The notes below the pieces were generated by a model that was given only the letters and a program-made list of their open reading frames with translations, did not search any database and was not told the origin of the DNA. Both the position numbers and the translations under genes were made by a program. Shown here piece by piece: positions 40,432-43,300 of a stretch of DNA of 64,000 bases; positions within the stretch are counted from its first letter, which is position 1; every line of letters starts with the position of its first letter. The stretch comes from Pigmentiphaga sp. NML080357 (GTDB taxonomy: Bacteria > Pseudomonadota > Gammaproteobacteria > Burkholderiales > Burkholderiaceae_B): NCBI RefSeq assembly GCF_002188465.1, contig NZ_NINW01000046.1:62001-126000 (forward strand), read 5' to 3'.

Positions 40432-41133
40432 ATGACGTTTTCCGTGATCGCCCGCTGCCCGCGCACGGGCATGTTCGGCATCGCCATCGCCACGCGCCCC
40501 ATGGCCATCGGTGCCAAGTGCCCGTTCCTGCGACCCGGCATCGGCGGGCTCGTCGTGCAGGCCAACGGCGATCCCCGCCTTGGGCCGCTGGGCCTGTCGC
40601 TCCTGGAACAGGGCTATTCCGCCCGGAAGGTGCTGAACGACATCATCGAAAGCGACGGGGAAGACAACATCGCCTGGCGGCAGATCGCCGTCATCGACAA
40701 GGACGGCCGGACCGCCGCCGTGACCGGCAAGGACAACGAGGACTGGAAGGGTCACGTCGCCAAACAAGACTATGCCGTGCTGGGCAACCGCCTGACCAGC
40801 GAACGCACGCTCACCGCCATGTCCGAAGCCTTCGAACGACACGGCGACCTGGAGCTGGCCGACCGGCTGGTGTGCGTGCTGGAAGCGGCGCGCGATGCCG
40901 GCGGCCAAGTGGCCGGCCAGCACTCCGCCGCGCTGCTGGTGCACAACAGGAAATCGTACGCGTGGGTGGATTTGCGGGTGGATGAGCACGATGAGCCCAT
41001 CGGGGAGCTGCGCCGCTTGTACCAGTTGTATATGCCGCTGATTCCGTATTACGACCAGCGGCCGGCGAATCCCAGCATGCCGCGGGATGATGACTGGAGG
41101 AAAGCGACGGGGGTGCAGGGAGGGCCGAGGTAG
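40432..41133 (+). CDS. DUF1028 family protein (Ntn-hydrolase-like)
   Basis: A 233-residue protein of the DUF1028 family. The N-terminus MTFSVIARCPRTGMFGIAIA and the stretch VVQANGDPRLGPLGLSLLEQ are typical. The family is predicted to adopt an Ntn-hydrolase-like fold, so an amide or peptide hydrolase is possible, but no reaction is established that I know of. AAGGAGG lies 5 bp upstream of the ATG at 40432. It follows the Bug receptor by 28 bp, so the pair probably imports and cleaves one substrate. Confidence 0.88.
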   Translation: MTFSVIARCPRTGMFGIAIATRPMAIGAKCPFLRPGIGGLVVQANGDPRLGPLGLSLLEQGYSARKVLNDIIESDGEDNIAWRQIAVIDKDGRTAAVTGKDNEDWKGHVAKQDYAVLGNRLTSERTLTAMSEAFERHGDLELADRLVCVLEAARDAGGQVAGQHSAALLVHNRKSYAWVDLRVDEHDEPIGELRRLYQLYMPLIPYYDQRPANPSMPRDDDWRKATGVQGGPR

Positions 41134-41159
41134 CCAAACTCGGGGCTGAGCGGAAGCAT

Positions 41160-42188
41160 CTACCGTGGAGCTACTGCACGCAACCACATCTTCTCGACCT
41201 GGCTGGTCATGTTCCGTGGAATCAACTCAACTTCCGGATGCGCGCTTCCATATACACGGAATAGCTCATCAGCAAAGGCTTGGCCGATTTCCTGCACCTC
41301 CGAGAAATCCAGAATGACCTTCTTGAAACGATCGAACCGTGCGATCAACCGTTTGGCCTGAGACCGGGATACCAATTGTTCGCCGCCGTATTTGGCAAGC
41401 TTCATGGGAACGACGGTTTTCGAAAAATCATAGTCTTCAGGCGCATCGGTGAACTGCTCGTAGACTTCGGCAGCAGTACGCTGACTTGCCAATCCAATTC
41501 TCATGAAAACCGTCGTGCCCTCATCAAACAAGCTTTCCTCCTCTCTCAACCAGTCGTCGGGGGAGCCGTCCTCATGATTGAATGTCAACCCATTGGCAAT
41601 GATCTCAAATTGATCGAACATCCTAGAAGTAAAGAAAACTCCTTCCCCAGTATGCCTTGATGGATCGGTTGTCAGTTTTCCCTTCGATAACTCGAACAAG
41701 GCTTGCCGCATGTCGGCGAGTCCAAGCGAGTTTGTAATTTTGGCAAAAATCCCCACTCCATCATCGGAAACGACAATGCTCAACGTTTTTTCGTCTTGGC
41801 TAACCCAAACGAAGACCGACTCACCGCCGGAATGATCGATTGCGTTGTTGACCATTTCTGTAAAGCCATGCACCGCAATGCGTTGAATATTGTTTGGGAG
41901 CGAGAAGTACGGCTTGAAAGCGCTTTCCCAAATGGAGTGTTCTTCAAGCCCTGCCAAGGGATAAAGATGCGCCACCCGGCGTTTATAGCCAGGGCTAAAA
42001 ACAGGATGAGTAGACGGGCCGCTGCGTGCAATCCATCCCTCTGCCTCCAGGCGCTGGATGTATTTATTGGCCGCAACACGAGAAACGCTGTATTTATCAG
42101 CGTAGTACCGCGTTAAGTCACGGGGATGTTCAACGACATCCCGGGTGACCGTTCTGACTAGTTCATCAAATTTCGACGATTTGGCCAT
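41160..42188 (-). CDS. Winged-helix / GHKL ATPase / DUF4325 (STAS-like) fusion protein
   Basis: A 342-residue protein with three parts. Residues 1-58 look like a winged helix (YSVSRVAANKYIQRLEAEGW). Residues ~90-235 are a GHKL (histidine kinase-like) ATPase: N box E111-N115 with D118/H119, G1 box DDGVGIF at 142-148, G2-like box HTGEGVFF at 179-186. Residues ~255-340 match DUF4325, STAS-like (VSRSQAKRLIARF, VILDFSEVQEIGQAFADELF). There is no phospho-acceptor His domain. The layout resembles an anti-sigma kinase joined to its antagonist and a DNA-binding domain. The gene is clearly AT-richer than its neighbours, suggesting transfer. Its promoter is made of 22-bp-spaced repeats. Confidence 0.85.
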   Translation of the reverse strand: MAKSSKFDELVRTVTRDVVEHPRDLTRYYADKYSVSRVAANKYIQRLEAEGWIARSGPSTHPVFSPGYKRRVAHLYPLAGLEEHSIWESAFKPYFSLPNNIQRIAVHGFTEMVNNAIDHSGGESVFVWVSQDEKTLSIVVSDDGVGIFAKITNSLGLADMRQALFELSKGKLTTDPSRHTGEGVFFTSRMFDQFEIIANGLTFNHEDGSPDDWLREEESLFDEGTTVFMRIGLASQRTAAEVYEQFTDAPEDYDFSKTVVPMKLAKYGGEQLVSRSQAKRLIARFDRFKKVILDFSEVQEIGQAFADELFRVYGSAHPEVELIPRNMTSQVEKMWLRAVAPR

Positions 42189-42196
42189 GGCGCACT

Positions 42197-42249
42197 TTGT
42201 AAACCACCAACACCAACATTGTAAACCAAAAAGGCTAACATTGTAAACC
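42197..42249 (-). promoter_or_regulatory. Three 22-bp-spaced direct repeats forming promoter and operator
   Basis: TTGTAAACC (GGTTTACAA on the coding strand) occurs at 42197-42205, 42219-42227 and 42241-42249, each start exactly 22 bp apart. On the minus strand the outer repeat supplies TTTACA (42247-42242) as -35 and the middle repeat TACAAT (42223-42218) as -10, with an 18-bp spacer. The third repeat lies in the 5' leader, 8 bp before the start codon. Any protein binding these repeats would block transcription, so autorepression by the encoded winged helix is likely. Confidence 0.65.
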
Positions 42250-42277
42250 TACAGCCCTCATCCTGTCGCGCAAAAGA

Positions 42278-42308
42278 AAACCCGCAGCGCCAGGAACGGT
42301 GCGGGTTT
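42278..42308 (-). terminator. Rho-independent terminator downstream of tRNA-Ile
   Basis: On the minus strand AAACCCGCACCG pairs with CGCTGCGGGTTT across a short loop, and TTTTCTTTTG follows. The strong stem and T-rich tail lie about 40 bp after the tRNA 3' end. The same sequence is also just upstream of the repeat promoter of the three-domain gene and would insulate it from tRNA transcription. Confidence 0.75.
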
Positions 42309-42345
42309 CACGATGAACAGTCGCGGACTAATTCAGATAAGTACT

Positions 42346-42424
<79 letters not shown>

Positions 42425-42493
42425 GAGGGCGCAATTCTACACCGACTTGCCCCCCGGAGACGCTGGAACGCCCGATCGCCCTACAATCCCGCC

Positions 42494-43300
42494 ATGGACG
42501 ACACCACCCAGTTCTGGCGCGACCCGGCTCTGCCGTATGCCGAGAGCAGACGCGCCTGCCACAGCCGTGCCTGCTACCGGCCTCATAGCCACCCAACCTT
42601 CTCCATCGGCGCCGTGGACGAAGGCGCCAGCGTGTTCACGGGTGCCTCGGGCGGTCCGGTAGGGCTACGTCCCGGTACCCTGGTTTTCGTGCCGCCGCAG
42701 CGCGTCCATGCGTGCAATCCCGAACCGGACCGGGAGTGGAGCTACCAGATGCTGCACCTGGATGTGCAGTGGTACGAGTCGATCCGGCGAGAGAATGGCC
42801 TTTATGCCGCGCATGCCGACGAGCCCGTCTGGATGAGCCGTGAACCGGCCTTCTACGCCGGGTTTTGCCGGCTCAACGGACTGCTGTTCTCGGATGCCGG
42901 CCCGCACGAAAAAGAAATCGCGTTGATCGAATTCGTGGCCGAGTGCGATGCCCAGGCCGGCCACCGAATTCCCCTCGTCTCGGCCCGCGGCCGGCGCGAC
43001 CGACTGGCGCCGGTGCTGGACGCGCTGCAGAGTGCGGACATGCCTCCGCGTTCTTTGTCCGAACTGGCGGCGCTGGCAGGCATGAGCCGCTATCAGCTGA
43101 TCCGCGCTTTCCGCGCGGAAACCGGGTTGACGCCGCATGCCTGGCAGCTCGACCAGCGCGTCAGCCAGGCCCGCGAACGGCTGCGGGCAGGCCAGCCCCT
43201 GGCCGAAGTCGCCTATGGCCTCGGCTTCGCGGACCAGAGCCATTTCCAGCGCGTGTTCAAGGGGCACGTCGGCGTCACGCCGGGCAGCTATCGCCGCTAG
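42494..43300 (+). CDS. AraC family transcriptional regulator
   Basis: A 268-residue regulator with an N-terminal cupin-type sensing domain (about residues 15-150) and a C-terminal double helix-turn-helix (about 165-265; LAALAGMSRYQLIRAFRAET and the family end motif VAYGLGFADQSHFQRVFKGH). It is followed by a LysE-type exporter gene on the same strand, a common pairing in which the regulator senses the exported amino acid. TACAAT lies only 6 bp before the ATG, so the mRNA may be leaderless. Confidence 0.92.
   Translation: MDDTTQFWRDPALPYAESRRACHSRACYRPHSHPTFSIGAVDEGASVFTGASGGPVGLRPGTLVFVPPQRVHACNPEPDREWSYQMLHLDVQWYESIRRENGLYAAHADEPVWMSREPAFYAGFCRLNGLLFSDAGPHEKEIALIEFVAECDAQAGHRIPLVSARGRRDRLAPVLDALQSADMPPRSLSELAALAGMSRYQLIRAFRAETGLTPHAWQLDQRVSQARERLRAGQPLAEVAYGLGFADQSHFQRVFKGHVGVTPGSYRR

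Follow-up and report, generated by a model that had tools for sequence, protein, structure and literature searches.

A solitary wHTH-GHKL-DUF4325 protein preceded by evenly spaced repeats in Pigmentiphaga sp. NML080357: a putative single-chain autoregulator

Described kinase-STAS switches and the single-chain protein

The closest described systems are CapK+CapS and VapKSC (Chambers et al., EMBO J 2026; PMC13373217). In response to ssDNA, which is accommodated in a groove between its own STAS and GHKL domains, CapK modifies the STAS-wHTH repressor CapS by phosphorylation of a serine, and CapS then leaves the DNA; CapS represses its own promoter from operators that overlap promoters, and CapK+CapS precede a known or predicted immune operon in 348 of 443 cases. 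In VapKSC, VapS acts as antitoxin to a PIN toxin (PMC13373217). In the SpoIIAB/SpoIIAA and RsbW/RsbV pairs the partners are likewise separate proteins, here with no DNA-binding domain, a sigma factor as target and a phosphorylated STAS serine (PMC13373217).

The window analysed here, 64,000 nucleotides of a Pigmentiphaga sp. NML080357 contig, encodes what looks like a one-piece relative of these two-protein switches guarding bacterial immune genes (Table 1). As in CapK+CapS, a single regulatory unit contains a wHTH together with a STAS domain and a GHKL domain of the anti-sigma type; however, CapK+CapS are two proteins (HTH-STAS-GHKL and STAS-wHTH) and the window protein is one chain in the order wHTH-GHKL-STAS (PMC13373217). 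CapS operators are palindromes of TTAA half-sites, whereas the window family has direct repeats 21-22 bp apart, and the acceptor Ser54 of CapS is replaced by Gln in 51/51 members of the window family. CapS represses itself, and in the window tandem repeats cover the predicted promoter; CapK+CapS are ssDNA-activated and mostly stand before an immune operon, whereas the window gene is solitary and has a convergent neighbour (PMC13373217). In VapKSC, the link is one of sequence, VapS being related to DUF4325 through a DUF4325 protein (L154) that matches the solved VapS chain 9z7o_A; as described, VapS has no wHTH, carries the acceptor S48 and inhibits a PIN toxin, whereas the window gene has no PIN neighbour (PMC13373217). 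An earlier note on this DNA had known of no characterised example with this promoter. That statement is due for revision: CapK+CapS and VapKSC are a close two-protein precedent (PMC13373217). No description of the single-chain wHTH-GHKL-DUF4325 form was found in the available open-licence literature. The available portions of that article contain no mention of "single chain", "fusion", "direct repeat" or DUF4325, and in the open-licence full text available, DUF4325 is mentioned in two papers, as a table entry in each; PMC5982333 lists a DUF4325 "ATPase" of the fungus Rhizophagus irregularis with the genes that resemble bacterial ones.

Table 1. Features of the regulator gene and its upstream region (positions in the window)
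Feature	Position	Strand	Remark	Basis
Single-chain wHTH-GHKL-DUF4325 regulator gene	41160..42188	-	342 aa, ATG start, stop included	ORF, Pfam, AlphaFold2
wHTH domain, residues 6-66	41991..42173	-		AlphaFold2 secondary structure; weak Pfam HTH
Third wHTH helix, residues 37-49	within 41991..42173	-	first residue R37	AlphaFold2
GHKL ATPase/kinase domain, SpoIIAB/RsbW type, residues 68-235	41484..41987	-		VIA/SpoIIAB Z 14.2, HATPase_c, invariant boxes
STAS-like DUF4325 domain, residues 250-342	41163..41441	-		PF14213 at 277-331; STAS folds match domain model
Gln303 codon	41280..41282	-	at phospho-serine position of STAS partners	Q 51/51; aligned via L154 to VapS Ser
Putative operator repeat 1	42241..42249	-	GGTTTACAA in gene direction; contains -35 TTTACA	exact match, promoter scan, repeat search
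Putative operator repeat 2	42219..42227	-	contains most of -10 TACAAT	exact match, promoter scan, repeat search
Putative operator repeat 3	42197..42205	-	end 8 bp from ATG	exact match, repeat search
Predicted sigma-70-type promoter TTTACA-18-TACAAT	42218..42247	-	from repeats 1 and 2	promoter scan
tRNA-Met (CAT)	42346..42424	-	just upstream of regulator gene; landmark, outside the switch	

The description of one AT-rich gene for three domains is borne out: windows within the gene have a GC of 0.486-0.496 and the flanks one of 0.63-0.72, Pfam recovers DUF4325 (PF14213; residues 277-331, E 2.5e-13, 49.9 bits against a curated cut-off of 23) and HATPase_c (residues 106-183, E 5.9e-7, 30.3 bits against 26.4), and in an AlphaFold2 model built with 47 sequences (mean pLDDT 83.4, pTM 0.78) the secondary structure is that of a wHTH at the N terminus, a GHKL domain, and a STAS-like domain at the C terminus. 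The Pfam HTH matches, at residues 30-55, are weak and all below threshold; the wHTH is assigned from the AlphaFold2 helices and strands, with ten-residue block means of 93-95 from residue 11. A GHKL domain without a phospho-acceptor domain had also been proposed, and no HisKA or other phospho-acceptor His domain appeared in the protein in a Pfam scan up to E 1. The same protein has no toxic or enzymatic domain by Pfam besides GHKL and STAS, no replication domain by Pfam, and no PADLOC match.

The best fold match of the GHKL domain is SpoIIAB (VIA; Z 14.2, rmsd about 2.4 over 132 residues), followed by RsbW (Z 13.1), LvrC, a response regulator of Leptospira (11.2), and DesK (9.8). A check for loss of its nucleotide-binding residues found them kept, the seven N, G1 and G2 box residues E111, N114, N115, D142, G144, G146 and G181 being invariant in 47 rows (alignment A1 is without 7 of the 54 homologues: L018, L024, L032, L033, L042, L047 and L050). 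S274, S276 and T258 are also invariant in the homologue alignment. When the DUF4325 domain was modelled alone, its matches were mainly STAS proteins and SLC26/SULTR transporters, with RsbS at Z 7.6 over 82 residues and SpoIIAA at Z 7.0, and RsbS as best Foldseek match (E 0.017); since every Z is below 8, the likeness to the STAS fold is modest. The window protein thus has the GHKL fold in common with SpoIIAB and RsbW and a STAS-like fold in common with SpoIIAA.

Two-gene relatives and the acceptor position

DUF4325 family searches gave matches in 27/185 and 29/398 genomes, some of them as short separate proteins. A GHKL gene lies directly upstream of, and often overlaps, 81 of 86 short DUF4325 genes, mostly of one subfamily (the base being 97 short DUF4325 loci minus 7 without upstream room and 4 seeds). 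Many of these GHKL-DUF4325 gene pairs are in proviruses; the proviral short DUF4325 set comes from one query (L144, with search peptides including SFLEEAFG) and comprises the best 80 of 157 relatives, so that the counts drawn from it here and below (81/86, 81/97 and 1/80) describe mostly one subfamily. A profile of six of the separate GHKL partners aligns with the single-chain GHKL domain (probability 90.6, E 1.3e-6). Scanned by Pfam, seven partners gave five weak GHKL matches (E 3.9e-6 to 0.08, below cut-offs) and two none, and no HTH family in any of the seven; the GHKL identity of the separate partners, a prediction, is based on the profile comparison and not on single-protein Pfam matches. 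DUF4325 and GHKL being adjacent genes elsewhere, the single chain unites an existing pair, the signalling domains of the window protein being encoded by two adjacent, often overlapping genes in those relatives.

The pairs have further features of their own. In L144, L146 and L183-L262 the module consists of a GHKL gene, a short DUF4325 gene and a third short ORF on the same strand; a following ORF (mechanical) is found in 77 of 78 proviral module loci, with a hydrophobic 19-mer in 35 of the 77 (best 80 of 157 relatives), and the arrangement resembles a kinase paired with its substrate, to which a membrane partner may belong. In L154 (299-1202), the DUF4325 gene overlaps a gene whose PIN match is weak (E 0.14, below cut-off), an arrangement that resembles the VapS-VapC part of VapKSC, and in L137 (1363-3159) a short DUF4325 gene with the single-chain-type motif IGPAFADELF sits beside a Fic-domain gene. 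L152 has, in one genome, a second, partial DUF4325 copy about 1 kb from the full gene and with an equal Pfam score.

Single-chain and separate proteins differ at the position where STAS partners are phosphorylated. Residue 303 is Gln in all 51 homologues reaching that column, and since residue 302 is Gly and residue 304 Ala or Gly, a shift of one residue either way restores no Ser or Thr. The position was identified through L154 (DUF4325 by Pfam, E 3.9e-13), whose match to the VapS chain 9z7o_A (E 5.9e-10) aligns the serine of the L154 "ISAF" with a VapS serine (chain residue 66 by count, which would be S48 of PMC13373217 if the tag has 18 residues); the "IGQAF" of the window protein places Gln303 at the same point, this last register being read by eye together with the family alignments. 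Against solved structures, the A4 profile reached VapS at E 0.63 among chance matches, and L144 had no match. Of 18 short DUF4325 proteins from the Pfam-family searches, 15 have Ser or Thr at one of positions 303 and 304, versus 1 of 21 long ones (the profile missed 17 of the 58 family-search loci, and one of the three short exceptions, L152, is the partial copy of a fused gene). The long exception, L169, has a GHKL domain that scores well with the pair-type profile, and two distant long members, L166 and L171, have Pro or His in place of Gln303. Among the 97 short proteins from genome and proviral loci, 81 have Ser at the acceptor site (mostly one subfamily, the proviral part being the best 80 of 157).

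An invariant Gln at the acceptor position makes phosphorylation at the canonical site unlikely and a nucleotide- or ligand-gated contact more likely; judged by sequence, the usual phosphorylation switch seems to have been lost in the single-chain family and the ATP site kept. The idea of a one-chain partner switch controlled by ATP binding or phosphorylation is therefore only partly sustained: the pair does exist elsewhere as adjacent genes (81/86), but the conserved Gln (51/51) speaks against phosphorylation at the canonical site.

Upstream repeats, their reach and the genomic setting

Exact copies of TTGTAAACC start at 42197, 42219 and 42241, with no further exact copy in the window and, allowing one mismatch, 4 matches there against 2.2 expected; a repeat search of 41100-42460 returned one direct-repeat family, of three copies with spacings of 22 and 22. 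On the minus strand the promoter scan found TTTACA-18 bp-TACAAT, scoring 10/12, with its -35 in the distal and its -10 in the middle repeat, and a weaker match, GCGACA-18-TACAAT (9/12), with its -10 inside the distal repeat; shuffled sequence gave 0.2 promoter matches on average. The exact search and the promoter scan thus agree with the earlier note, which had seen three TTGTAAACC repeats with two of them doubling as -35 and -10. Its spacing of exactly 22 bp holds in the window, but becomes 21 or 22 bp in the family, and its word "iteron" can serve as an analogy only, because no replication function was found (no Pfam replication domain in the protein, and no plasmid record matching it). By eye and outside the scan output, repeats 2 and 3 (42189-42225) can also be read as -35 and -10, TTTACA-18-TACAAA, which would place the transcript start near the ATG and make a leaderless message possible.

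Homologues came from relatives, from 24 loci on named genome contigs and from a class sample of 369 genomes, giving 54 upstream regions of at most 220 bp once the fragments L054, L055 and L060 were dropped. Scored loosely (at least 7 matches in an 8-base window at a given lag), a repeat occurs at lag 22 in 40/54 and at lag 21 in 28/54, versus about 4.4 in shuffles, and each lag outside 21-22 and the 42-44 harmonics is found in at most 9/54. Repeats of the 21-23-bp type, which were to be looked for upstream of homologues, are thus present: lag 21 or 22 occurs in 51 of 54, versus 61 of 226 for the sequence in front of other ORFs at these loci (Fisher 7.8e-21, kinship ignored; the controls are mechanical ORFs of at least 150 aa, unvetted as genes), and in 13 of 16 proviral homologues (19 IMG/VR loci without L070, L073 and L083). 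Lag-21/22 repeats are missing in L003, L028 and L031 of the 54 and in L067, L068 and L080 of the 16. Under a strict criterion (9/10 bases), repeats precede 44/54 homologues versus 1/80 two-gene GHKL/DUF4325 loci, mostly of one proviral subfamily; the loose criterion gives 15/80 for the latter. The gene pairs also have a mostly Ser/Thr acceptor and, usually, a third short ORF behind. The contrast in strict repeats between single-chain and two-gene loci is the strongest sign that the repeats go with the wHTH-bearing protein. Evenly spaced repeats before the relatives' own genes suggest that the protein probably controls itself.

Repeat sequence varies by clade, and the 21-22-bp spacing is kept. 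The commonest types are TTTACAAT or TTGACAAT, one clade has TTGTCGAT and another CCTTTAAGAAA, and L026 and L029 have an ATTTCC type; TTTACAAT, TTGTCGAT and CTTTAAGAAA are among the clade-distinct types, and inverted copies were read by eye in L026, L029 and L034-L037. In L042, of the TTGTCGAT class, the predicted promoter (TTGATA-16-TATAAT) sits between the repeats, so that promoter geometry alone is unlikely to account for the 21-22-bp spacing; in L041 it is again built from the repeats. Among 38 dereplicated loci, wHTH similarity correlates with repeat similarity (Mantel, 0/2000 permutations), and does so weakly once the rest of the protein is controlled for (partial Mantel r 0.16, 14/2000), and flank similarity shows no rise with wHTH similarity (r -0.08). 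The rest of the protein has an equal partial correlation with the repeat (0.16, a value with no permutation behind it), so part of the wHTH-repeat correlation is plain relatedness. A residue-base code was also considered: of 44 proteins whose repeats are clean, 36 have Arg at residue 37, and ACAA occurs in a repeat unit in 33/36 with R37 versus 1/8 without Arg. As proof of a code this was dropped, since a tree of 42 has three changes at residue 37 and ten of the ACAA state and the sign test cannot reach 0.05 (the tree counts, made with a shorter unit window and minus two truncated proteins, differ from the table of proteins); with changes this few and this loose, the R37-ACAA link counts as no more than consistent with such a code.

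Potential targets were sought with exact paired-repeat patterns in 13 whole genomes. Paired sites occur in 9 of the 13, each directly upstream of the homologue, and are absent in G083, G228, G303 and G391; no second exact paired site away from the homologue was found in the 13. In the gene's own genome (5.73 Mb), both paired matches are its own promoter; paired-site searches of two sets of genomes gave matches in 6/9 and 3/4.

The window gene is solitary. Its downstream neighbour in the ORF list is convergent, no same-strand gene stands directly behind its stop (the only frames on that strand are mechanical ORFs lying antisense to the convergent neighbour), and no PIN toxin gene was found in the downstream frames inspected. 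Flanking genes vary between homologue loci, with no conserved partner: 82 neighbours include 94 Pfam families, of which the 25 among the matches listed belong for the most part to metabolism or signalling. Scanned with PADLOC, 82 of the 90 neighbours of L010-L031 gave 76 families, the 25 among the matches listed with one protein each; from this uncontrolled count of families, placement in defence islands is a possibility.

The gene is probably horizontally acquired. It is absent from ten same-genus genomes, near full length in only 3 of 100 relatives besides its own genome, and has homologues in 30/368 other genomes of the class sample (E 1e-30). The protein matches nothing in plasmid or phage records, and carriage as plasmid or phage cargo was set aside on that ground; 19 IMG/VR loci carry relatives, and since some neighbours are of phage type (integrases, endolysins and replication proteins among the 81 of 94 neighbour ORFs scanned), proviral carriage does occur. 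Homologues 76, 65 and 45% identical (L019, L022 and L031) are in bins labelled Acidimicrobiaceae, Cryomorphaceae and Melainabacteria, through either gene transfer or mis-binned contigs.

Insertion at the tRNA as the edge of an acquired segment was considered and rejected. The best match to 42260-43300 begins at the tRNA 3' end in 9/10 same-genus genomes, but these matches span the tRNA alone plus at most about 33 bp past its 5' end, and so do not fix the edge. The direct-repeat search of 41100-42460 found the three 22-bp-spaced copies and nothing else, and therefore no duplication of the tRNA end of at least 12 bases. In five relatives (G002, G003, G004, G006 and G008) both the tRNA and the flanking gene are kept, separated by about 3-5 kb, so that none of them offers a clean empty site. 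A tRNA gene lies within about 320 bases of 5/54 homologues (L011, L012, L038, L053 and the window).

A proposed switch, its alternatives and its meaning

On balance, and with moderate confidence, we favour a solitary, horizontally spread autoregulator, in which the wHTH acts on tandem operators to repress its own gene and the GHKL and STAS domains form a nucleotide or ligand switch that dispenses with the usual serine phosphorylation. The wHTH would bind the tandem direct repeats of 9-10 bp, 21-22 bp or two DNA turns apart, over its own promoter, and the bound protein would repress its own transcription, as family-wide conservation of the repeats suggests. The GHKL and STAS-like domains, elsewhere the products of two adjacent genes, would constitute a sensory switch in one chain: under control of a nucleotide or a ligand (ssDNA, for example), the STAS domain may dock on the GHKL domain and thereby alter DNA binding. 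Docking might be head-to-tail between neighbouring protomers on the repeats; direct repeats on one face of the DNA need head-to-tail contacts, and the GHKL-STAS interface could be such a contact, although the inverted copies in some clades strain a purely head-to-tail model. The fullest version is a phosphorylation-free one-chain switch in which the Gln-bearing STAS domain docks on its neighbour's GHKL domain in a nucleotide- or ssDNA-dependent way, with protomers head-to-tail, in a single self-repressing mobile gene whose own promoter is its sole detectable target and whose repeat and recognition helix are co-tuned in each clade. Taken as a whole, this is tentative and somewhat unlikely.

Another possibility is that classical phosphorylation persists at some other Ser or Thr (S274/S276 or T258, for instance), in cis or in trans, and frees the wHTH from DNA. 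The invariance of the GHKL catalytic residues and of these three side chains would suit such a scheme, as would the release of CapS from DNA on phosphorylation by CapK (PMC13373217), but the site used in SpoIIAA, CapS and VapS is Gln in 51/51, and it is the separate partners that mostly keep Ser/Thr (15/18); we consider this unlikely. The protein could instead be mainly an effector, of one-gene defence or growth arrest, kept silent by autorepression, with the repeats limiting its dose. A solitary and sporadic gene (3 near-full-length copies in 100 relatives, 30/368 class genomes), sometimes in proviral contigs (19 loci) and with no second exact paired site, might be expected of an effector, which nevertheless seems a rather poor prospect for a protein that has no PADLOC match and, apart from GHKL and STAS, no Pfam domain of a toxic or enzymatic kind; some PADLOC-type proteins do occur among the neighbours.

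Among solved structures the closest fold is that of an anti-sigma factor, which brings up regulation of distant targets with single or degenerate sites, perhaps via a sigma factor through the SpoIIAB-like domain. No exact paired site lies elsewhere in the 13 genomes, and sporadic presence speaks against a core regulon; distant regulation accordingly ranks low in our estimate. Could the repeats be a promoter or recombination feature independent of the protein? Those of the window do double as -35 and -10, but the spacing is kept where repeats are not promoter-like and strict repeats are near absent in the two-gene relatives, which leaves very little probability for an independent feature.

If the favoured self-repressing single-chain switch is correct, the gene's only visible target is itself, and the question becomes what maintains such a solitary gene in genomes. 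DUF4325, of unknown function in Pfam, is now tied to the kinase-STAS immunity regulators described in 2026; the GHKL-STAS pair occurs also in a single chain that carries a DNA-binding domain of its own and no phospho-acceptor. Such a protein is a compact, testable system for the ways in which contact between GHKL and STAS might govern DNA binding when phosphorylation takes no part. For dozens of divergent proteins the conserved repeats amount to operator predictions, and would provide a natural series for the study of wHTH specificity.
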